Shown: piece after piece, positions 4,694 to 44,521 of the stretch
How the letters are laid out: the number at the start of each line of letters is the position of its first letter
Numbering within the stretch: the first letter of the stretch is position 1
Source: Phycisphaerales bacterium
GTDB lineage: Bacteria > Planctomycetota > Phycisphaerae > Phycisphaerales > SM1A02
Direction of reading: 5' to 3'
DNA: 55,505 nt
Assembly: GCA_022446885.1 (NCBI GenBank)
Contig: JAKVBU010000010.1
Span: forward strand, 101,362 to 156,866
Made by a program: the position numbers and the translations under genes
The notes under the pieces: generated by a model
Database searches by the model: none
Told to the model about the DNA's origin: nothing
The model's input: the letters and a program-made list of their open reading frames with translations, nothing else

Positions 4694-4765
4694 GGCCCCT
4701 TCGTCTAGCGGCTAGGACGTCAGGTTCTCATCCTGAAAACAGGAGTTCGATTCTCCTAGGGGTCA
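4694..4765 (+). tRNA. tRNA-Glu, anticodon CTC
   Basis: A full cloverleaf can be drawn by hand. The acceptor GGCCCCT pairs with AGGGGTC (one G-T pair), followed by discriminator A; the D stem is GTC/GAC; the anticodon stem is TCAGG/CCTGA around the loop TTCTCAT, with anticodon CTC reading GAG; the T arm is AGGAG-TTCGATT-CTCCT. No CCA is encoded, so it must be added after transcription. Confidence 0.93.
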
Positions 4766-4827: not shown

Positions 4828-4902
4828 GCCGATGTAGCTCAGTCCGGTTAGAGCGAGGGATTCATAAACCCTAGGTCGCTGGTTCAAGTCCAGCCATCGG
4901 CA
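4828..4902 (+). tRNA. tRNA-Met, anticodon CAT (elongator type)
   Basis: Acceptor GCCGATG pairs perfectly with CATCGGC, followed by discriminator A; the D stem is GCTC/GAGC; the anticodon loop TTCATAA carries CAT; the T arm is GCTGG-TTCAAGT-CCAGC. The fully paired first acceptor position argues against the initiator tRNA. The 31-39 pair of the anticodon stem is A-A. A lysidine-modified tRNA-Ile with CAT is the alternative. CCA is not encoded. A TTGACA at 4767-4772 could be its own -35, but no convincing -10 follows. Confidence 0.88.
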
Positions 4903-18251: not shown

Positions 18252-19244
18252 TCAGGCGACGTCCAACCGGCCGGCAGCGGCGGTTGCTTGTTCAAGACAG
18301 GCTTGCAGGTGCTTGGGATGCCCCTCAGTACGCAGAAATGCCGGTGCCGTAGCCGCCATGAGGAGCCGGCGGATATCGGCAAGCGTGTGGTCCTCATCGG
18401 AGAGGCCCAGCCCTGCCGCTCGACGGGCGCGGCGCATGGTCTTGACCGGCGCCAATGCCAGCCGCTGTGATCGCGACCAGAGCTGCCGCTCCAGATAGAC
18501 GGCATCCTCGACCCAGTGGCCCGGTCGAACTTCAGCCAGATCAATGAGGATGACTGGCGCATCAGCCTCGTCACTACGGCACAGGGCATTGGCAAGATGG
18601 AGATCGCCGTGAATCCACTGATCGAGGGGGCGTTTGCGCCATCTGGCAACGAGCGAGTCAAGCGCCTTGCCCAGTCGTCGGTGGAGTTTCTTCCACTCGT
18701 TCGTCTGCTCCAGCGCGTTGTCTTTCAATGCCTGCATGGCCTTGTCGAGCGTCAGGCTCCAGTCTTCACGGGCGACCTGATCGGGGTCGATCTCGAAGGA
18801 TCGGGTCTGGGCATGCAGGCGGGTTGCAGCCTCGGCGATGCGGCCCACGTGGGTGTCTTCCCAGTGCAGCCCCAGCGGGCCAACTGGCAGCGCCTCGATC
18901 ACCATCCAGGCCAGGTCATAGGGGCCCAGTGTCAATCCTGAGGCCAGCAACTGGGCCACGGTGTCTGGTGGACTGCCGTCACCAGCCTGCAATCGTCTGG
19001 TCCAGAAGAGCTCACGCGGGCCCACCGGCACCTTCACGATCACCTTTCTAGCAGTGCCATCGTCTTGTTTCCAATTGCCTCGGCCGGTTGCAGCGCCACC
19101 ACGCTGCCAGTCGGCACGAAACCAAGTGATCCCATCAAGCCGCCCATTGCAGGCTTCGATGAGATGCGGCCGAAGTGACTCGGCCAGACTTCGATCGGCT
19201 CTTCCTGAAGGCCCCATCTGCGCTGACACTACCCACTTGGGCAT
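18252..19244 (-). CDS. Aminoglycoside-phosphotransferase-like kinase (choline/hydroxy-substrate kinase fold)
   Basis: A 330-residue cytosolic protein of the APH fold. The catalytic loop is WIHGDLHLANALC with the HGDLHxxN signature (near residue 218), and the metal-binding segment after it reads VILIDLAEVRPGHW, so the usual second acidic residue (IDxxD/E) is present only as the Glu of AEV. The nucleotide-binding Lys is probably in KVIVKVPVGP. Family members phosphorylate antibiotics, choline, homoserine or sugars; resistance should not be assumed here. It starts 54 bases from the divergent HAD gene and is separated by 110 bases from the downstream YfgM-like gene. Confidence 0.78.
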   Translation of the reverse strand: MPKWVVSAQMGPSGRADRSLAESLRPHLIEACNGRLDGITWFRADWQRGGAATGRGNWKQDDGTARKVIVKVPVGPRELFWTRRLQAGDGSPPDTVAQLLASGLTLGPYDLAWMVIEALPVGPLGLHWEDTHVGRIAEAATRLHAQTRSFEIDPDQVAREDWSLTLDKAMQALKDNALEQTNEWKKLHRRLGKALDSLVARWRKRPLDQWIHGDLHLANALCRSDEADAPVILIDLAEVRPGHWVEDAVYLERQLWSRSQRLALAPVKTMRRARRAAGLGLSDEDHTLADIRRLLMAATAPAFLRTEGHPKHLQACLEQATAAAGRLDVA

Positions 19245-19263
19245 CTCCGAGGCAAGGGGGGCC

Positions 19264-19292
19264 TTGCCCGGGGGCTCCGGCGGGCCTACCGT
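19264..19292 (+). promoter_or_regulatory. Promoter TTGCCC-17-TACCGT, leaderless-type, for the HAD gene
   Basis: TTGCCC (19264-19269) and TACCGT (19287-19292) are exactly 17 bases apart, and the ATG at 19299 begins six bases after the -10. The whole unit lies in the 54-base divergent gap. Confidence 0.5.
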
Positions 19293-19298
19293 CGCGGC

Positions 19299-20168
19299 AT
19301 GGGCGTGATCGTGGTCGATCTGGACGGAACGCTGGTGGACCCCCAAGGGGCCGTCTCTCAGCCGGGTGCTGCTGCCTTGCGAGATGCTCGCGCGGCCGGC
19401 TGGCAGGTGTTGATCGCGACCGGACGGAGCTGGAGCGAGTGCCGTCAATTGCTGGACGAGGCCGGCGTCGATGGCCCAGTCATCACGGCAGGGGGTGCCA
19501 CTGTGACGCAACACCCCGGGGGGATGACCCTCGACGCGGTGGCGATGGAAGAGGCACAGGCTCAACTGGCCGCCGAGATTCTCATCAGCCACGGCCTGGG
19601 TGTACTTGGTCTATTGGACCCGGACCATTGTGGGGTGGAGTATCTGCACATCGGTCCTCACCCGCTCCATGCGGTGTCTGCTTGGTGGCACGAACATCAC
19701 GGCCACTCGATCGTGGCATGCCCCTCCCTCGATGGGGCGTTGGCTCATGGTCCAATGCTGCGAATTGCTGCAGTTGCTGATGCAGAGTCATTTGCTGCCC
19801 CAATGAGCGAACTTGAGGCCCGACTGAGTTCGGCGAGCCGAGCTTGGCACTGGGCTGCTGTGATTGATCAGGCCCAAGGGCATGCACCGGTTCATCTGCT
19901 GGAGGTGTTTTCCAGATCAGCCTGCAAGTGGGCCATGGTCGAGCGGTGGTGTCGTTCAAATGGCTTTGATCCTGACCAGGTGGTAGCCATCGGGGACGGT
20001 CGCAACGATGTGGAACTCATCCGCCATGCGCCCTTGGGTATCGCCATGGGGAATGCAGACGCGCAGGTGCTTGCGGTGGCTGATCATGTTGCGCCTTCCA
20101 ATGCACAGCACGGGGTGGCACACGCCGTGGAGGCCCTGCTCGAAGGGGCGTTGGCGGTGCCGTCATGA
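19299..20168 (+). CDS. HAD-superfamily hydrolase, Cof type (IIB)
   Basis: A 289-residue cytosolic phosphatase. Motif I is VVDLDGTLVD (nucleophile Asp7 and acid/base Asp9), motif II is the Thr of LIATGRSW, and motifs III/IV are the Lys of SACKWAMVE followed by AIGDGRNDVELI. The type IIB cap lies between about residues 85 and 195. Cof-type enzymes dephosphorylate sugar phosphates, pyridoxal phosphate or nucleotides; the substrate is unknown. Its stop overlaps the ATG of the giant downstream gene as ATGA, so the two are translationally coupled and may act together. Confidence 0.85.
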   Translation: MGVIVVDLDGTLVDPQGAVSQPGAAALRDARAAGWQVLIATGRSWSECRQLLDEAGVDGPVITAGGATVTQHPGGMTLDAVAMEEAQAQLAAEILISHGLGVLGLLDPDHCGVEYLHIGPHPLHAVSAWWHEHHGHSIVACPSLDGALAHGPMLRIAAVADAESFAAPMSELEARLSSASRAWHWAAVIDQAQGHAPVHLLEVFSRSACKWAMVERWCRSNGFDPDQVVAIGDGRNDVELIRHAPLGIAMGNADAQVLAVADHVAPSNAQHGVAHAVEALLEGALAVPS

Positions 20169-23100
20169 TGCGAGACCTGCTTCAAAGACACGACGGTGCA
20201 GCCGTGGTCGGGGCACCCGAGGCCGTCGTCAAGGCGGTGCTTGAGTGCTCCGGCCATGTGACGAGTTTTACATGGGCCCGGGCGGATGCGAGCCGTGGGC
20301 TGGACGATCTACTGCAATCCCCCGGAGCTCAGGAGGCCTTGGCGCTACATCGGTTGAGTGTGCGGGCGGCTTCCGATGCCCAGCGGGCGTTGGCAACGGC
20401 ACTGGCAGCGGCTGGGCGTGGGGGGCTGCATGTGGTGTTTGCCGCAGGGCAGGGCGCGCTCTCACTTGCGACCAGGCTCGATGGTCGAACGCTGCCTGAA
20501 GCTGCAGGTCTTCTCGTGATCAGCGACCATCCGCCAAGGGAGCGATCTGCAGTACTGGGGCTTGACTTGCCTGTGCTCGAACCGGGCACGGTTTCGCAGC
20601 TGCGAGATGATTTGGAACCAGCTTTGCGCATGAGCAGAGCATCCGGCCGAGCCGTGATGATGGCGGTCGATGCACGAGTGCTGCGATCGGGTGCCTCCAT
20701 TGATCTTCGGCCTAATCATGGGGCAGATGCGCCCAGACGTGAGGGGCAGCGGCATCGCTCGATGCGATGGGATCGCAAAGAGGATGCGCTTCGTATGGCC
20801 CGGCGGCTCGAGTTGAGCCGCTTCAGAGAGCTGCCCAGCCCTGGCGAAGTGGCTCCCGCAGGTTTGATCACCGTCGGTAGCGCTGATGGACATGTTCAAT
20901 TGGCACTGAGAGACAGCCAGTCAAGTGCACGCGTTCCAGTTCTGCACCTTGGTGTGTCGGCGCCGGTTGATCCGGCGGCGGTGATTCGCATGCTCGGACG
21001 CTGCGCTCGCGCCATCGTGGTTGAGCCAGGCTCGGAGTCAGTTGCCCACGAGATTCGGCGCATCGCTGACGAGCATCGAATGCAAGGTGAGACGGTGGCG
21101 GCGGTCGAGTCGGCCATGGTGCCCGAGTCGAGTGTGCGGGCCACCAGGTGGCTGCAGACGCTCTTGTCAGGCGAGGCCCAGGGGGCGTCACCGCCACCGC
21201 CAATCGTGGCTGCGCCTGTGATCGAGGGACGGGCGATGGGCCTCTCGGCCATGAGAGACGCCATTCGTCGGCAACTGCACACCTTGCTGACGCAGCGCGT
21301 GGACGCCTTGGAACCGGTGCCTATCCAACTCGACGGGCTGTCAATAGGCGATGAGCCTGGTCAGGGCATCGGTGTGGAGACGTGGACAGCATCGAGTTTC
21401 CGTGACGCTGGAGCAGCGGCGGTTGATCAGTCGATCGAGGCACCTGGCACTTGGCTGCATGTCATCGCGGCGGGCGCACCACCACGGGGCGTGATGATCG
21501 AGCGATTGGCTGCGGCATTCGTGCCACCGGAACTGGATCCGGCGCCGCGGGTTCGTCGAGTGCCCTTTGACGAGGAGATTGCATTCAGTGAGGCCGTGGC
21601 AGAAGCGCTCAGCGCCCCGGGCGTGACGCTTCTGGTGGTGTCCGACGTCAACGGACAATGGGATGTTGACGCCAGAGAGCAAGCGGCCAGAGAGGTCGAT
21701 CGGGCGGGGTTCCGTCCGTTGCAACGGGTCGTTCAGCCGGTGGAGCGATTCAGCAGCCCGCAGCCGGCGGCGCTGGGGGCCATCGATCCGGCCGGACTTG
21801 ATCCCGAGATTCAAAGTGCAGCCAGAGTGACCAAGATCGATGGCCCTTGGCGGCCCCGACTGGCGCTCAGGATCAGGCCTCGGCAGGAGATGATCGAGGT
21901 CACTCGCAATCAGGCGCCACGCGTTGATGTACATGCCAGCGGTCTGCCAGTGCCCGTGCCAAGGCATGCCCGTGAGCCAGTCTGGCGAATTCACCTTGCT
22001 GGTTTCAGAGGGCACCGGCCCGGCGTTGTGGGCACGATCCTGGCGATGGCGGGCGAGGCCATGGGATATCAGGTGGACTTCACCTGCGACACGACCCCCA
22101 CCGGACCGGGTCAGCGGGCATTTGTGCAGATGCGCTTTGAGCAGCCCGGGGCACCGCGGACACTCCGCATCGAACCTGGCATGGCTGACGTTCTGTTGTC
22201 ATTCTCAGACGCTCAAGCGGCGGCAGCGGCCACTTTGTGTGATCCCGACCGCACCTGTATCGCGGCTGGGGCGGCCGAAGGGGGCGCCATTGCTCAGTGG
22301 ATCCGGGGCAAGTGGCAGCGTGATCGTTGTCTGGTTGCCGATGTGCAGGAAACCTGCCGCCGCCGATTTCACACCAGCCGTCTGGTCGATGTGGTGTTGG
22401 TCGGCGCAGCATTTCAATCGGGGTGGATACCACTGCGGGTGGACACGGTCGAAGCAGCGCTGACACAGGTTGAGGCATCCGGACATGCAAGAGTGCGGGA
22501 GGCATTCACATTTGGGCGACACGCTGCGTTGGACCCTGCTTTGCTCTCACCTGAGCGGGCGGTAGATGAAATCGACACACCTCTGCGGCGAGCCCGGCGT
22601 TGGCGGTTGCTCGCTCGCATGGGCACGCGCCGCACCGACCAGAAACTCGGCACGCTGCTTGAGCGGGTGTTGCAGGGGCTGCCAGGGTTGGCGGAGACTG
22701 CCGACGGGCGGCAGATGCGTGGGCTGCTTGTAGATGGCCTCGCTGGGGCAACCACGTGGGGTGGGATCGACGTGGCCCAATCGCTTGCAGATGACGTGCT
22801 CGCCTTGTACCGAGCCGATCGGGCCGACACCGGCCGCCGCCTGACTCGCGCCGCGATCGGGCCACTTGTTGAGACAACGCTACTCCGAGATCCGATCCAT
22901 GTGGCCCGCATGGCCGTCTCTCCCGGCCACCGTGCCCAGTTGCGGCGGTCTTTCAATGTCCGGCCAAGCCGAGGCGACACCATGGAGATCCGATACCTCA
23001 CGCGAATCGAGTTCGTGGCCGGATCTCATGCGCTGCACTTGGATGTGCGTACCAGCGACTGGGTCGCCCGTTTGGTGGCGGCGCTGGGGGCCATCGTTCC

Positions 23101-23320
23101 GCGTCGATGGCGAGGATCTCCTCAACAACGTGCCCGACGCGAAGCGGTCAGGTCTATTGTCCAGCGTTCAACGACCGAGGCCAGCGAAGGGCACGACCAT
23201 TGGTTGGCAGTGCTTGAACAGTTGCGAGGCCAGTTTGAGTCGGGGCGACTCGGGGCAATGTCGCCCGATGAGATTCGTTTGCTTCCCGACTCGGTCAGTG
23301 CGCCCGCTGCTCCCTTCTGA
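20165..23320 (+). CDS. Giant protein resembling fused indolepyruvate ferredoxin oxidoreductase but lacking cofactor motifs
   Basis: A 1051-residue soluble protein. By order and residual motifs it looks like an IorA-IorB fusion. The N-terminal part (about 1-190) has GLLVISDHPPRERS followed by LPVLEP, as in the pyrimidine-binding domain. A second block (about 235-300) has VPVLHLGVSAP and IVVEPGSESV. The segment at about 365-480 sits where the thiamine-diphosphate domain belongs. About 608-800 resembles the gamma domain, with GFRGHRPGVVGTILAMAGEA in place of GxGGxGxxxAxxxLA. What is missing: there is no GDG...N thiamine motif, and the seven cysteines form no CxxCxxC iron-sulfur cluster set. A pseudoenzyme or a new activity is inferred. 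It ends 26 bases inside convergent rlmN. Confidence 0.6.
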   Translation: MMRDLLQRHDGAAVVGAPEAVVKAVLECSGHVTSFTWARADASRGLDDLLQSPGAQEALALHRLSVRAASDAQRALATALAAAGRGGLHVVFAAGQGALSLATRLDGRTLPEAAGLLVISDHPPRERSAVLGLDLPVLEPGTVSQLRDDLEPALRMSRASGRAVMMAVDARVLRSGASIDLRPNHGADAPRREGQRHRSMRWDRKEDALRMARRLELSRFRELPSPGEVAPAGLITVGSADGHVQLALRDSQSSARVPVLHLGVSAPVDPAAVIRMLGRCARAIVVEPGSESVAHEIRRIADEHRMQGETVAAVESAMVPESSVRATRWLQTLLSGEAQGASPPPPIVAAPVIEGRAMGLSAMRDAIRRQLHTLLTQRVDALEPVPIQLDGLSIGDEPGQGIGVETWTASSFRDAGAAAVDQSIEAPGTWLHVIAAGAPPRGVMIERLAAAFVPPELDPAPRVRRVPFDEEIAFSEAVAEALSAPGVTLLVVSDVNGQWDVDAREQAAREVDRAGFRPLQRVVQPVERFSSPQPAALGAIDPAGLDPEIQSAARVTKIDGPWRPRLALRIRPRQEMIEVTRNQAPRVDVHASGLPVPVPRHAREPVWRIHLAGFRGHRPGVVGTILAMAGEAMGYQVDFTCDTTPTGPGQRAFVQMRFEQPGAPRTLRIEPGMADVLLSFSDAQAAAAATLCDPDRTCIAAGAAEGGAIAQWIRGKWQRDRCLVADVQETCRRRFHTSRLVDVVLVGAAFQSGWIPLRVDTVEAALTQVEASGHARVREAFTFGRHAALDPALLSPERAVDEIDTPLRRARRWRLLARMGTRRTDQKLGTLLERVLQGLPGLAETADGRQMRGLLVDGLAGATTWGGIDVAQSLADDVLALYRADRADTGRRLTRAAIGPLVETTLLRDPIHVARMAVSPGHRAQLRRSFNVRPSRGDTMEIRYLTRIEFVAGSHALHLDVRTSDWVARLVAALGAIVPRRWRGSPQQRARREAVRSIVQRSTTEASEGHDHWLAVLEQLRGQFESGRLGAMSPDEIRLLPDSVSAPAAPF

Positions 23321-24386
23321 GTTGACCGCAGGCCGCCGCGATGTCGCGGCCTCGTGAGGCTCTGATGTGGGCATTGACAGACGCCCGGCGAAGGATGCGT
23401 TGAAAGCCCAGTACGTCGTCATCCGTGGGGCGGCGGTAAGGCAGGCCATCGACTTCGTTGTACCGAATGAGATTCACGTTGGCCCGAAGCGTCCGTGCGA
23501 GTCGCGCGAGTTCACGGGCCTGCGACGATCGATCGTTTACGCCACCCAGCAGCAGATACTCGAGCGTGATCTCGCGGCCGGATTGCTCGAAGTACGCCCT
23601 GCAGGCATCCAGTAACTCTTCGATGGTTGAGAACTTCGCCCATGGGATCAACTCCCGTCGAAGGTCATCATCTGGGGCGTGCAGAGACAGCGCCAGCGTC
23701 ACCGGCAGTTCGAAGTGGGCAAACCGACGAATGGCCGCCGGCAACCCAACGGTGCTGACGGTGATGCGACGGGCGCCGATGCCCATGCCCCAAGGGGCGT
23801 TCAGCGTTCTGATGGCCTGCATGACTGCGGTGGCATTCGCCAGCGGTTCACCCATGCCCATGAAGACAACATTGGAAACGCGCGATCCACCTTCAAGCCA
23901 ACTGAGGCGATGCGCCTGTTCCACGATCTGTCCCGCGTCGAGATTCCCTTCGAGACCACCCAAGCCCGAGGCGCAAAATCGGCACCCGACAGGGCAGCCC
24001 ACTTGTGATGACAGGCATGCAGTTCGCCGATCCTCCGTCGGGATGAGCACTGTCTCCGTGCTCCGGTCGCTGGGGCCGCCTGTCGGCGCCAGCACGGGAA
24101 GGGGCGATGGGCCCGCTGGTCGGGTCTTCATCGAGTCCCAACCCAGCAGCAACTTGTGAGTGCCGTCGCTGGCAAGTGCGCTCGCGAGCAGTTCGCCACG
24201 GTAGAACTCAACCTGCTCAGCGATCAGATCACGGTGGGCGGCCGAGACATTCGTCATTGCGGATGGATCAACAACACCCTGCCGGTAGACCCATCTCAAG
24301 ATCTGGTCTGCCCGATGCCGTGGCATGTCGTGGTCGGCGCAGAACGACTCCAGCGACGTGGGGTCGAGGTCGAAGAAACTCAGCAC
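23295..24386 (-). CDS. rlmN: Dual-specificity 23S rRNA/tRNA (adenine-C2) methyltransferase
   Basis: A 363-residue radical-SAM enzyme that methylates A2503 of 23S rRNA and A37 of some tRNAs. The cluster motif is CPVGCRFC within TACLSSQVGCPVGCRFCASG. GMGEP, TVSTVGL and LALSLHAPDD follow, and the resolving cysteine is in IAAACGQL near the C-terminus. Length is close to E. coli RlmN (384). It starts at a GTG that overlaps the end of ispH by seven bases, so the two form an operon. Confidence 0.94.
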   Translation of the reverse strand: MLSFFDLDPTSLESFCADHDMPRHRADQILRWVYRQGVVDPSAMTNVSAAHRDLIAEQVEFYRGELLASALASDGTHKLLLGWDSMKTRPAGPSPLPVLAPTGGPSDRSTETVLIPTEDRRTACLSSQVGCPVGCRFCASGLGGLEGNLDAGQIVEQAHRLSWLEGGSRVSNVVFMGMGEPLANATAVMQAIRTLNAPWGMGIGARRITVSTVGLPAAIRRFAHFELPVTLALSLHAPDDDLRRELIPWAKFSTIEELLDACRAYFEQSGREITLEYLLLGGVNDRSSQARELARLARTLRANVNLIRYNEVDGLPYRRPTDDDVLGFQRILRRASVNAHIRASRGRDIAAACGQLRREQRAH

Positions 24387-25435
24387 GAGCCGTTCACCGT
24401 CAGATCGACCAGCCGGTGAGAGATGCCGTTGGCCTGAAGAAACGACTTGGTCGCCTTGATGTTGTCCATGGAGATTCGACGGCCCTCTGGATCGACCCCG
24501 CGTGATCGCATGAACTTCTTCAGGCTGCCAGGCAGGCCGAACTCGATGCTCTCGTGGAAGACGTCGTGCTGTTCGACTTCGCCACCGTGGTTGCGTACAA
24601 GTTCGAGGATGAGCGAGTGGACGAGGTCTTCAGGAGCGCTGGCACCTGCAGTCACCAGTACACGATGGACACCTTCCAGTGCATCAGGGTTGAGTTCACC
24701 CACGTCGTCGATCAGAATCGCATCGGTGCCCACATTTCTGGCAATCTCAGTGAGTCGAACGCTGTTGGAGGAATTTGTCGAGCCAACGACGATGACCAGA
24801 TCACAGTCGGGGGAGAGCCGTCGCACAGCCTGCTGTCGGTTTGTCGTGGCGTAGCAGATGTCCTCACTGGGCGGTGACTTGAGCGAGGGAAAGGCCCGCT
24901 TGAGCGCCGAGATAATGACCTCGGCGTCGTCCGTGCTCAGGGTGGTCTGGGTGAGATAGATGAGTTTCTCGGGGTCATCTATCTGAAGCGAGGGAATCTC
25001 GTCGGGATGCTCGACCACCTGAATGGCATCGGGGGCCTCGCCCTGCGTGCCGATCACCTCCTGATGGTCACGGTGCCCCACGAGCAGAATCTGCCATCCG
25101 CGATTGGCATATCTGATGGCCTCCGCGTGGACCTTCGTCACCAGCGGGCAGGTGGCATCGATGTCGATGAGATTCCGCCCGCGGGCTTGGGCTCGAACCT
25201 GCGGGCTTACACCGTGGGCGCTATAGACGATGATGGCATCCTCGGGAGCAGCCGAGATTTCTTCGATGAAGATCACGCCTTGATCGCGAAATCGCTCCAC
25301 CACGTGCTTGTTGTGCACAATCTCGTGATAGACGTAGATGGGGTCGTCCGTGACCTCCAGCAGCTGATCGATCACGTCGATGGCCATGTAGACGCCGGCG
25401 CAGAATCCCCTCGGGTTGGCGAGGATGATTTTCAC
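24380..25435 (-). CDS. ispH: 4-hydroxy-3-methylbut-2-enyl diphosphate reductase
   Basis: A 351-residue iron-sulfur enzyme making IPP and DMAPP in the last MEP step. The three cluster cysteines are in NPRGFCAGV, DATCPLVTKVH and EDICYATTNRQ; EIVHNKHVV carries an active-site His. It is about 35 residues longer than E. coli IspH because of a C-terminal tail after EFGLPGSLKKF. I choose the GTG at 25435; the frame stays open to 25807, but that would run antisense through hpnC. It is divergent from hpnCDE, whose products consume its isoprenoids. Confidence 0.95.
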   Translation of the reverse strand: MKIILANPRGFCAGVYMAIDVIDQLLEVTDDPIYVYHEIVHNKHVVERFRDQGVIFIEEISAAPEDAIIVYSAHGVSPQVRAQARGRNLIDIDATCPLVTKVHAEAIRYANRGWQILLVGHRDHQEVIGTQGEAPDAIQVVEHPDEIPSLQIDDPEKLIYLTQTTLSTDDAEVIISALKRAFPSLKSPPSEDICYATTNRQQAVRRLSPDCDLVIVVGSTNSSNSVRLTEIARNVGTDAILIDDVGELNPDALEGVHRVLVTAGASAPEDLVHSLILELVRNHGGEVEQHDVFHESIEFGLPGSLKKFMRSRGVDPEGRRISMDNIKATKSFLQANGISHRLVDLTVNGSC

Positions 25436-25441
25436 GCCCAC

Positions 25442-25447
25442 ATGATA
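25442..25447 (-). promoter_or_regulatory. -10 hexamer TATCAT, leaderless-type, for ispH
   Basis: TATCAT lies six bases before the GTG at 25435. It faces the hpnC hexamer within a divergent gap of only 34 bases. Confidence 0.5.
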
Positions 25448-25454
25448 GCCCCGA

Positions 25455-25460
25455 TACAGT
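25455..25460 (+). promoter_or_regulatory. -10 hexamer TACAGT for hpnC
   Basis: TACAGT lies nine bases before the ATG at 25470, which would give a leader of only about two bases. Confidence 0.4.
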
Positions 25461-25469
25461 GCCGCCCCG

Positions 25470-26402
25470 ATGCGCATGGAGGTCATGCAGTTGCTGGACA
25501 GGTGGGGCCCCGACGGGTGCGAGCCCATGTCGGAGGCCGCTGCGTTGCAATGGTGCGACCAGTTGACAAGGGCGCACCGGGAAAATTTCACGGTGCTCAG
25601 TGGGCTCATGCCCGAGGCCATGCGGGCCGGAGCATGCGCCGTGTACGCATGGTGCCGCTGGGCCGATGATCTGGCGGATGAAGCAGGCGGGCAGGATGCG
25701 TCCATACGGCTGCTGCAGTGGTGGCGTGAGGAACTGCATGCCTGCTTTGAGGGCAGGGCATCCCATCCGGTGCTGATCGCGCTGCGGCAAGCCGTTGCGC
25801 ACCACAATCTGGAACTGGCCCCATTCGACGCCCTGCTCGATGCCTTCGAGCACGATCAGGTGTGCAGCCGCTACGAGACCTACGAGCAGGTCTTGGGGTA
25901 TTGCCGGGGCAGTGCAGAACCGGTCGGTCGCATCGTGTTGCAGTTGGGGGCCGTGGAGCCGACGTCACGGATACTCCAATTGTCTGATCAGGTCTGCACT
26001 GGTCTGCAGTTGGTGAACCACTGGCAGGATGTCCGGCGCGATCTGCTCGAGCGTGATCGCATCTACATTCCTGCAGATGCCCACGATATTGACGCGTTCG
26101 AGTCGAGGTTGCGGGCAACTTGCACGCAGGGACATGCGCCCGACCGCACCTTTCTTGGGGCGTATCGGCAACTCATCGAGTCGCTATGTGAGAGAACAAG
26201 GCCCTTGCTGGAGGCGGCGCATGAACTGAGTGAACTGGTGCCGGCAGGACTGGCTCCCATGATTTGGCTGTTCGGTCAGGGGGGGCTCTCCCTGCTGGAG
26301 GGCATCGAGATGCACCAGTACGAGACTGCGCTGTTTCGGCCGCGCGTTTCCCGGTGGCGCAAGTGCATGCTGTTGCTTCAGGCAAGGCGGATGCGACCTT
26401 GA
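25470..26402 (+). CDS. hpnC: Hydroxysqualene synthase HpnC
   Basis: A 310-residue member of the squalene/phytoene synthase family. The first Asp-rich motif is seen as WADDLADEA and the second as NHWQDVRRDLLERDR, with YIP after it as in the family. HpnC turns presqualene diphosphate, made by HpnD, into hydroxysqualene. Assignment to HpnC rather than HpnD rests on gene order (first of three) and the NHWQD form of the second motif. It is the head of the hpnC-hpnD-hpnE operon and divergent from ispH. Its stop overlaps the hpnD start as TTGA. Confidence 0.88.
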   Translation: MRMEVMQLLDRWGPDGCEPMSEAAALQWCDQLTRAHRENFTVLSGLMPEAMRAGACAVYAWCRWADDLADEAGGQDASIRLLQWWREELHACFEGRASHPVLIALRQAVAHHNLELAPFDALLDAFEHDQVCSRYETYEQVLGYCRGSAEPVGRIVLQLGAVEPTSRILQLSDQVCTGLQLVNHWQDVRRDLLERDRIYIPADAHDIDAFESRLRATCTQGHAPDRTFLGAYRQLIESLCERTRPLLEAAHELSELVPAGLAPMIWLFGQGGLSLLEGIEMHQYETALFRPRVSRWRKCMLLLQARRMRP

Positions 26403-27256
26403 TTCGCTGGATTGACGATCCATCTTGTCGAGCCTGCGGGCGCATCACCCGTGAGCGAGCGGGCAGTTTTCATCTGGGCCTGCAGTTGTTGCCTCAGCCG
26501 ATGCGGACGGCCATGTTCGTGATCTACGCATGGATGCGCCATGCAGATGATCTGGTCGATGATCAGGCGCCCACAACGGACACCTCTGAGCGATTGGACG
26601 CATTCGCCTCCGATACGGCCGCCGTGTTTGACGGCGAAGTGCCAGAAGAAGGACTGCTGCGGGCCCTGGCGCTCACCCACCAGGCCTTTGAGCTGCCCCG
26701 AGGTCCGTTTGAAGAGATGATCGAAGGACAGCGGCGAGATCTCTCAGATGCACCAATTGAGAACGAGGCTCAGTTGGAGTCCTACTGCCAGCAGGTGGCG
26801 TCGAGCGTCGGCGTGCTGTGTGTACATGTGTGGGGTGCAAGAGATCCGCATGCCCATGAACTCGCTCGCCTGCGGGGCGTGGCCTTCCAGTTGACCAATA
26901 TTCTCAGAGACATCGGGGAAGACCTGCAGCGCGGCCGCTGCTATCTGCCTGTCAGTTCAATCAAGTCGAGTGTTGGCCGCGATGCACTGGCGGCGTGGCA
27001 CCCACCAGAGCCCTGCAGTGAACTGGTGATCAAGTGGTGCGGCCGGGCTCGTGAGTGCTATCAGGCGTCCGCTGGACTGGAGTCAATGATCGATCGTCGA
27101 TGCAGAGGCACCTTGGTCGCCATGACAAACATCTACAAGGGCATTCTTGGACAGATTGAAGCCAAGCCAGCTCGAAGTGTCCTGGGCCCGCGAGCTGGCC
27201 TGTCTTCGCTTGCCAAGTCATGGATCGCAGCCAGGGCGGTTTTGCTGAACCGATGA
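26399..27256 (+). CDS. hpnD: Presqualene diphosphate synthase HpnD
   Basis: About 285 residues, squalene/phytoene synthase family. It couples two farnesyl diphosphates to presqualene diphosphate. Motifs: GSFHLGLQLLP, YAWMRHADDLVDD (first Asp-rich), FQLTNILRDIGEDLQRGR (second Asp-rich) and CYLP. The start is uncertain. I use the TTG at 26399, which gives a TTGA overlap with hpnC and the normal distance to the first motif; a GTG at 26363 is the alternative. The frame is open to 26264 inside hpnC. Confidence 0.88.
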   Translation: MIRWIDDPSCRACGRITRERAGSFHLGLQLLPQPMRTAMFVIYAWMRHADDLVDDQAPTTDTSERLDAFASDTAAVFDGEVPEEGLLRALALTHQAFELPRGPFEEMIEGQRRDLSDAPIENEAQLESYCQQVASSVGVLCVHVWGARDPHAHELARLRGVAFQLTNILRDIGEDLQRGRCYLPVSSIKSSVGRDALAAWHPPEPCSELVIKWCGRARECYQASAGLESMIDRRCRGTLVAMTNIYKGILGQIEAKPARSVLGPRAGLSSLAKSWIAARAVLLNR

Positions 27257-28638
27257 GTAGTCGTCCCGTCATCATTGGTGCGGGGCTTGCCGGATTGACG
27301 GCGGCGCTGCGCCTCGCCGATGCTGACCTGCGACCGCTGGTGCTGGAGACGAGGAAGGGCCCCGGGGGCCGGGCGATTTCTTTCGATGACGTCCGCAGCG
27401 ATCTGGTGCTTGATAACTGCCAGCACGTGCTCATGGGCTGTTGCACCAATCTGATCGCCTTGCTTGAGCAGATCGGTGTGGCGGACGCTATCGAGTGGTC
27501 GGACACGCTGGCCTGGATGAGGCCCGATGGGGGTGTGGATGTATTGGAAACGGGGCGGCTTCCCGCTCCGGCGCATCGAATGGGTTCGCTGCTGCGCATG
27601 CGGCTGTTCAGTCTTCGTGAGAAGGTGAAACTCGGCCGAACCATGGTGAAGATCCTCCGTCTGGGCCGCAGTGGGCATGAGCTATGGCGGGGGCGCACGT
27701 TTGCGGCCTTCCTGGACACCTGCCCATGCACCGAGCAACTGCGCCAGTTGTTCTGGGATCCGGTGATCATCAGCGCATGCAATCTCGCGTTGCATGAAGT
27801 TGCAGCAACACATGCATTCCACGTCATTCAGGATGCATTCCTGGCCTCTCGTGAAGCAGGGCGGATCGGTGTGCCCAGCAAGCCGCTCTCGGCCTTGTAT
27901 GAACCCGCTGTTGCCAAGCTCACAGCTGCCGGGGGCGAGTTACGCACTGGAGCATCCGTCTCCCGGATCGAAGTTGGGGAGCGGAGGGTCAAGGCCGTTC
28001 ACACCCGATCAGAGGTGATCCCCTGCGACGATGTGATCTGCAGTGTTCCATTCAACCGGCTGGGCTCCATGCTTGATGCACCTGACGCCCGAGTCGAGGG
28101 TTTGAGGCATCTGGAACACAGCCCGATTCTGGGCGTGCATCTGTTGGTTGATCGAGTTCTGATGCAGCGTGAGCATCTTGTGACAGCGGGGCGGCAGGTG
28201 CAATGGGTCTTCAACAAGGGACCGCTTCCGGAGGGGGCTGGCCAACATCTGCACGCCGTGATCAGCGGCGCTGACGATTGGATGGCCCTCGATGAAGCCT
28301 CGATTCGTCATCGCATCCTTGAGGATCTCGAAGGGGTCTTTCCCGCCCTGCGCGTGGCAAAGATCGTTGGCTTTCGCCCGGTCAAGGAGAGGCAGGCCAC
28401 CTTTCGTGCAACGCCCGAAGCGGAAGCGCTTCGGCCTGAAGCCGCGCCTGGTCAATCAGACGTGCAGGGGCTCTATCTGGCGGGCGATTGGTGCCGAACC
28501 GGCTGGCCCGCCACGATGGAAGGGGCTGTCATCAGCGGTCATCTGGCGGCGCAGGCGCTGCTGGGAGAAGCTGCTGCGGGGCCCAAGGGGCCACTGGCAC
28601 CCGCTCGCTTGCCAAGATGGCTTGGCATTCGTCGCTGA
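27253..28638 (+). CDS. hpnE: Hydroxysqualene dehydroxylase HpnE
   Basis: A 461-residue FAD-dependent protein of the phytoene-desaturase/amine-oxidase type. It reduces hydroxysqualene to squalene. The N-terminal dinucleotide fold is PVIIGAGLAGLTAALRLA with the following GGRA motif, and the C-terminal FAD-binding block is GLYLAGDWCRTGWPATMEGA. The ATG at 27253 overlaps the hpnD stop (ATGA). Together hpnCDE give squalene for hopanoids or sterols; no cyclase is seen in the window. The end lies 21 bases from the convergent peptidase gene. Confidence 0.9.
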   Translation: MSSRPVIIGAGLAGLTAALRLADADLRPLVLETRKGPGGRAISFDDVRSDLVLDNCQHVLMGCCTNLIALLEQIGVADAIEWSDTLAWMRPDGGVDVLETGRLPAPAHRMGSLLRMRLFSLREKVKLGRTMVKILRLGRSGHELWRGRTFAAFLDTCPCTEQLRQLFWDPVIISACNLALHEVAATHAFHVIQDAFLASREAGRIGVPSKPLSALYEPAVAKLTAAGGELRTGASVSRIEVGERRVKAVHTRSEVIPCDDVICSVPFNRLGSMLDAPDARVEGLRHLEHSPILGVHLLVDRVLMQREHLVTAGRQVQWVFNKGPLPEGAGQHLHAVISGADDWMALDEASIRHRILEDLEGVFPALRVAKIVGFRPVKERQATFRATPEAEALRPEAAPGQSDVQGLYLAGDWCRTGWPATMEGAVISGHLAAQALLGEAAAGPKGPLAPARLPRWLGIRR

Positions 28639-44432: not shown

Positions 44433-44521
44433 GGACAGGTGACCGAGCGGCTGAAGGTACCGGTTTGCTAAACCGGCGTAGGGAGCAATCTCTACCGCGG
44501 GTTCGAATCCCGCCCTGTCCG
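44433..44521 (+). tRNA. tRNA-Ser, anticodon GCT
   Basis: Acceptor GGACAGG pairs with CCTGTCC, discriminator G. Anticodon stem CCGGT/ACCGG surrounds TTGCTAA, giving GCT, which reads AGC/AGT. A long class II variable arm (GTAGGGAGC..TCTCTACC) and T arm GCGGG-TTCGAAT-CCCGC follow. CCA is not encoded. Confidence 0.95.

Follow-up and report, generated by a model that had tools for sequence, protein, structure and literature searches.

The 2-oxoacid:ferredoxin oxidoreductases (OFORs) are ancient enzymes defined by thiamine diphosphate (ThDP) and iron-sulfur (Fe-S) clusters, and their gamma domain adjoins the active site. Pyruvate:ferredoxin oxidoreductase (PFOR) binds ThDP and three clusters; its domain order differs from that of the fused indolepyruvate ferredoxin oxidoreductases (IORs; PRK13030 and PRK13029). 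A member of the IOR family that has been studied genetically is EdcC of Novosphingobium tardaugens (PMC7793797). Here we describe a relative of the fused IORs that has lost the sites for both cofactors. It is encoded in a 55,505-nucleotide stretch of a Phycisphaerales genome (GTDB lineage SM1A02; GCA_022446885.1, contig JAKVBU010000010.1, positions 101,362 to 156,866), which as a whole we call the window. The open reading frame has no internal stop, and its product, the window protein, holds seven Cys, no C..C pair and no GDG. We write f1 for the family of the window genome, f2, f4, f5 and f6 for further families of the order, f7 for a family of another order and g60 for a genus within f6; G and L numbers denote genomes and fetched loci or copies, respectively.

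The window protein matches the NCBIfam model of the fused IORs, PRK13030, with an E value of 1e-19 (best stretch, residues 583-932) and IOR_alpha over residues 135-321 (4e-6, far under the family cut-off). As in the fused enzymes, a single chain gives matches to both an alpha-like and a gamma-like part, followed by a weak C-terminal match to DUF6537, the sole hit of a Pfam scan (E 0.041). This agrees with the IorA-IorB relatedness and domain order proposed in a preliminary description of the sequence. Unlike the fused enzymes, it has neither ThDP nor Fe-S sites, and its score of 69.8 bits, or 44.5 bits when the genome was searched, falls short of the curated cut-off of 816, which none of 251 genomes of the order exceeds and which complete Phycisphaerales enzymes also miss. 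PRK13030 found no further copy in the window's own genome, and Pfam and NCBIfam matched no other enzyme family. Searched alone against the PDB, the sequence gave no relevant match; a profile of 87 homologues hit a ThDP-binding domain and a KOR alpha subunit (3e-6 to 7e-6). An AlphaFold2 model from 87 aligned sequences had a mean predicted local distance difference test score (pLDDT) of 89.6 and a predicted template modelling score of 0.88. Its top Foldseek matches in the PDB were PFORs and OFORs (best E 5.4e-13), and VIA-align superposed residues 9-792 on PFORs 7plm, 1b0p and 6cip with Z scores of 24.3-25.5 over 481-484 residues (7plm: Z 25.5, 3.8 Å, 482 residues). By the 7plm fit and the Foldseek ranking the model has the fold of OFOR domains I, II and III, and not the unrelated fold for which the preliminary description had allowed. 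Residues 353-606, modelled by themselves (pLDDT 83.6), gave no Foldseek match at E 0.001 or less; the 50 rows listed by VIA-align were all ThDP-dependent enzymes, with a modest best Z of 9.3 over 116 residues and some fits to other ThDP-enzyme domains. We read this stretch, chiefly from the sequence alignment, as a shrunken ThDP domain. PADLOC models, which cover described systems only, matched neither the window protein nor the products of the two genes upstream at E 0.1. Taken together, we have next to no doubt that the window protein is a derived, cofactor-less OFOR.

We then compared it with the complete IORs of f5, f6 and f7 (for example L106, L122 and L166). These homologues are full-length and share 18-22% identity with the window protein, but they keep FCPGCPHR, GDG..N and CExCLEC plus four more Cys, whose role as Fe-S ligands is assumed from the motif. 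Counts for f1 rest on an alignment (A1) of 75 of the 86 f1 copies, the other 11 having been inspected separately; those for the enzymes rest on seven of the complete enzymes, of which at least 23 were fetched. The span that holds FCPGCPHR and GDTGCYT (L106 residues 415-508) measures 94 residues in 7/7 enzymes and 43-76 (median 63) in the 75 f1 rows. The catalytic Glu of the ThDP site and the Asn of GDG..N are each kept in 0/75 rows, and the GDG Asp occurs once, isolated in a VSDERF context (L097). The window protein itself has TASS for GDGT and G for the Asn. Among nine aligned enzyme Cys, C653 alone, the first of CxxCxxC, persists (64/75 rows), and the window protein lacks it. The 11 separate copies show the same losses, with C653 present in 11/11. 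Overall, the CPGC segment, the catalytic Glu and GDG..N are absent from 86/86 f1 copies, and a loss private to the window genome is ruled out. Neither the ThDP site nor the Fe-S cysteines of PRK13030 were found in the window protein. The preliminary description was thus right about the missing clusters and thiamine site and about the seven Cys. It had also considered that orthologues might carry the cysteines, this copy being simply decayed: homologues in f5, f6 and f7 do carry them, but simple decay fails, as the loss is common to the 86 f1 copies examined and these are conserved, with near-invariant residues that are new. "Giant", its word for the protein, is misleading, as the frame measures 1078 residues from stop to stop and complete fused enzymes of the order 1225-1332 (whole frame in the fetched DNA). 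With its sites gone, the f1 protein should be unable to run the OFOR reaction.

The gene is nearly universal in f1: the window protein has matches in 170/181 genomes, 102/104 good-quality genomes and 44/45 genera. Nine f1 pairs had a synonymous distance (dS) below 1.2, and in eight of them the ratio of nonsynonymous to synonymous change (dN/dS) was 0.038-0.146. For comparison, a pair of complete enzymes (one member from G328) gave 0.065 and an f4 pair 0.082. The f1 protein is very likely under selection, as the preliminary description had supposed, and the evidence holds at the level of the family. A gene under purifying selection whose product has lost its catalytic residues is by definition a pseudoenzyme; the f1 protein is one, its inactivity being predicted from the sites.

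The f1 proteins also have constraints of their own. One residue occupies at least 71/75 rows in 63 columns: 42 show the majority residue of the enzymes, 11 swap a residue held by at least 5/7 enzymes, and 10 are fixed in f1 and variable in the enzymes. Replacements include E405 (V in 7/7 enzymes), R615 (G in 7/7) and D742 (N in 7/7). R74, E405, D512, R615 and D742 are near-invariant in f1, and they look like f1 inventions because two f4 and two g60 rows do not have them. The single row without E405 also lacks R74. Enzyme-invariant columns are kept most often in the gamma domain (36/78), followed by the C-terminal part (29/81), domains I and II (38/141), the Fe-S part (7/50) and the ThDP part (15/122), with part boundaries drawn by eye. 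Since f1 gained near-invariant residues of its own, its protein looks repurposed.

We looked for complete and degenerate relatives across the order. Counting partial matches and the copies of f1, the fused-IOR model matched 147/251 genomes at E 0.001; complete enzymes were found in f5, in f6 and in one f7 genome. Beyond f1, degenerate copies that keep long frames and have lost the same sites were present at 5/5 fetched f4 loci and 4/4 fetched g60 loci; the f4 copy of G039 is apparently split into frames of 1060 and 326 residues. The g60 proteins differ from those of f1 in that the residues were lost by substitution, not deletion. Three f6 copies are partly altered, with GDS in G230, GDA in G029 and GQG with CAGC in G236; they keep all aligned Cys and, as L080, L115 and L120, respectively, may represent early stages of retirement. 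Two single cases are set apart: a complete IOR in an f2 genome (L123, G328:C14) is 91% identical to an f6 copy and was taken as transfer or contamination, and one genome with an estimated contamination of 7% (G022) holds two different degenerate copies, L090 and L091. A search of literature listings gave no published description, and the main text of an article on SM1A02 (PMC11266412) does not contain indolepyruvate.

The sites were probably lost at least twice, once before the split of f1 and f4 and once in g60, because g60 nests in f6 in two trees and its gene order resembles that of f6 loci. In an rpoB tree rooted with f7 and holding three of the four g60 genomes, g60 lies inside f6 beside a genome that has the enzyme (0.90), and a clade (1.00) unites f4, f2 and f1. 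An IOR tree built without f1 and f4 and rooted with f7 also places g60 inside f6 (ultrafast bootstrap 80), beside two of the three partly altered copies; the position within f6 differs between the two trees. The full IOR tree would suggest a single loss, as the degenerate copies group together, apart from all complete ones (0.999). This grouping is probably long-branch attraction. The g60 loci have a further peculiarity. At 4/4 of them the next long gene encodes an E1alpha-E1beta-lipoyl-KASIII fusion of 1182-1214 residues, with the E1 motif GDG..DN intact in all four and the lipoyl Lys and KASIII Cys present in the three checked. This suggests that in g60 the 2-oxoacid chemistry passed to the neighbour. 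The fusion is not a general partner, since full-length matches occurred in 2/23 genomes searched, both g60.

In f1, the usual gene order is a divergent APH-type kinase gene, a HAD phosphatase gene and the OFOR-like gene, then RlmN-, IspH- and squalene/phytoene-synthase-like genes, the last three named by reading the sequences. The HAD gene lies on the same strand, overlapping or at most 600 bases upstream, at 70/86 f1 loci, a lower bound. In the window its stop TGA (20166-20168) overlaps the ATG of the OFOR-like gene (20165-20167), and the ATGA coupling and the intact frame are as first described. The preliminary description also raised the prospect that the HAD gene is always adjacent, and it is not. 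At five of the other 16 loci it is nearby, further off or on the opposite strand, and at 11 there is none; five of these (L006, L017, L040, L042 and L049) hold little upstream DNA. It is located elsewhere in the genomes of G011 and G003. G080 and G177, two f1 genomes in which the f1 protein has no match, lack the HAD as well. No f1-type HAD matched near the IOR at the 41 non-f1 loci scanned, many with just 1.5 kb flanks.

Which function, then, has been retained? We judge it an even call that the gene encodes a repurposed pseudo-oxidoreductase that, free of cofactors, binds a ligand and acts as a regulator or scaffold, and, with similarly balanced confidence, we favor a binding or regulatory role over a catalytic one. 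The ancestor of f1, and probably also of f4, would have had a normal fused IOR-type 2-oxoacid oxidoreductase. Its lineage lost the catalytic Glu, the site for Mg and diphosphate, the half of the ThDP domain that holds CPGC and almost every cluster Cys, whereas purifying selection kept the remaining body in nearly every descendant. Charged near-invariant residues were gained: in sequence and secondary structure, R74 and E405 adjoin positions that once belonged to the ThDP site and R615 sits in a loop of the gamma domain, their placement in space being predicted. A salt bridge from R74 to E405 may replace ThDP where the two former cofactor domains meet, and an anionic metabolite may be bound at the gamma-domain site that carries the arginine. 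This metabolite may in turn be a substrate of the HAD product or a signal that gates it. Several observations weigh against a selected regulator of this kind. The ninth close f1 pair had a dN/dS of 0.304 (at a dS of 0.089), seven further pairs gave no usable dS, and pairs inside the window's own genus were saturated (dS 1.9-2.8). One row (L040) has Cys at position 74 and yet keeps E405, and the window protein breaks the f1 rule at 3/63 conserved columns (a gap, E670 and F930). G014, G082, G083 and G088 keep the f1 protein although their whole genomes gave no match to the HAD at E 1e-8. Finally, no neighbor common to f1, f4, g60 and the enzyme-bearing families was seen, in a coarse grouping where HAD and IOR frames share one group (c0) and another (c1) includes antisense-looking frames, one of them without a family match.

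The strongest rival, possible if less probable, is that the protein became a non-redox enzyme of a new kind, with another active site built from the conserved Glu, Asp, His and Arg at the former interface of the domains and a CoA-like or phosphorylated substrate. Consistent with this, the polar residues E405, D512, H610, R615, R739 and D742 are near-invariant in f1, the gamma domain is the best preserved part, and a phosphatase gene adjoins at most loci. However, Pfam and NCBIfam matched no other enzyme family, two of these residues also occur outside f1 (H610 in some enzymes, R739 in some f4 or g60 copies), and no neighbor was seen that consistently points to a substrate. It is rather unlikely, but conceivable, that the fused IOR of the order always had a second, cofactor-independent function, which f1 would show in pure form; the body could then survive the loss of ThDP and Fe-S chemistry more than once, and once beside an intact ThDP dehydrogenase-ketosynthase fusion. 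An obligate pairing of the f1 protein with the HAD phosphatase, for example as its regulatory subunit, would account for the frequent upstream HAD gene and the ATGA overlap; we consider it improbable, given the four genomes that keep the f1 protein without a HAD match, the two in which the HAD lies elsewhere, and the searched genomes of f4, f5 and f6, where it is not beside the IOR gene. Still less credible is a partner subunit that supplies ThDP and Fe-S clusters to a complex that remains an oxidoreductase. The window genome does have a separate POR-domain match, an open frame of 657 residues on contig 20, as long as gamma-alpha subunits of OFORs ordinarily are; but 6/12 f1 genomes searched (G008, G193, G101, G019, G011 and G024) keep the protein without another POR match, and the pyrimidine-side Glu was lost along with the other ThDP side. 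A decaying IOR pseudogene, which the long branches (a mean distance of 3.89 from 15 f1 copies to eight enzymes, against 0.67 among the enzymes) and the single stop codon in the matched span of at least seven of the f1 matches listed might suggest, is ruled out as simple decay by near-universal, mostly full-length retention, low dN/dS and new near-invariant residues, and we give it almost no credence.

Features of the locus, and of the g60 loci compared with it. Coordinates are those of the window unless a locus is named.
Feature	Coordinates	Strand	Remarks
APH-type kinase-like protein	18252..19592	-	Beside HAD gene, divergent
HAD-IIB (Cof-like) phosphatase, 289 aa	19299..20168	+	DLDGT and GDGRND motifs; directly upstream of OFOR-like gene
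Cofactor-less OFOR/IOR-like protein, 1051 aa	20165..23320	+	ATG overlaps HAD stop as ATGA; profiles, AlphaFold2 model, Foldseek, VIA-align
Residues 9-339	20189..21181	+	Pyrimidine-domain (I) and domain II fold of OFORs; A72 at catalytic Glu position
R74	20384..20386	+	Two residues past lost catalytic Glu; near-invariant in f1 (73/75)
Residues 353-540	21221..21784	+	Putative shrunken ThDP-domain remnant; CPGC and GDTGCYT segment deleted, GDG and N replaced
E405	21377..21379	+	Strand leading into former GDG site; near-invariant in f1 (74/75)
Residues 526-600	21740..21964	+	Cysteine-rich insert remnant; 0 of seven enzyme Cys aligned there kept in window copy
Residues 605-792	21977..22540	+	Gamma (POR) domain, best-kept part; glycine loop changed to G-F-R-G (R615), RGGG loop to PGQR
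R615	22007..22009	+	Near-invariant in f1 (74/75)
Residues 864-986	22754..23122	+	Weak DUF6537 match (E 0.041); C-terminal part matched above cut-off by complete enzymes
E1alpha-E1beta-lipoyl-KASIII fusion	L116:9677-13222		Beside degenerate g60 IOR
E1alpha-E1beta-lipoyl-KASIII fusion	L117:4383-7967	-	Beside degenerate g60 IOR
E1alpha-E1beta-lipoyl-KASIII fusion	L118:9144-12785		Beside degenerate g60 IOR
E1alpha-E1beta-lipoyl-KASIII fusion	L119:10660-14247		Beside degenerate g60 IOR

Downstream of the OFOR-like gene, window positions 23295-28638 hold RlmN-like, IspH-like, two squalene/phytoene-synthase-like and HpnE-like genes, named by eye, which look like a hopanoid-type cluster. Three tRNA genes on the + strand (4694-4765, 4828-4902 and 44433-44521) were the sole Rfam matches at the gathering score. 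Near other IORs of the order, a GNAT-HisC/CobD-like aminotransferase fusion lies downstream of complete f5 enzymes (L106:12201-13994; L108:5584-7401, - strand), and a gene for a Rho-family factor directly downstream of a degenerate f4 copy (L112:4322-5536, - strand). A FabF-like ketosynthase gene stands beside several f6 IORs and one f5 IOR. We rejected a functional link: the f1 genomes searched have matches of only about 28-32% identity, and in three f6 genomes a close copy of the ketosynthase is present without a fused IOR match.

A family-wide, selected OFOR with neither ThDP nor Fe-S clusters means that the scaffold of this enzyme can be retained for another use. In a large uncultured lineage, a metabolic step could be misassigned where annotation goes by domain order. 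The relatives form a series, from complete through partly altered to sites lost by substitution and then by deletion, which makes the retirement of an enzyme traceable step by step.

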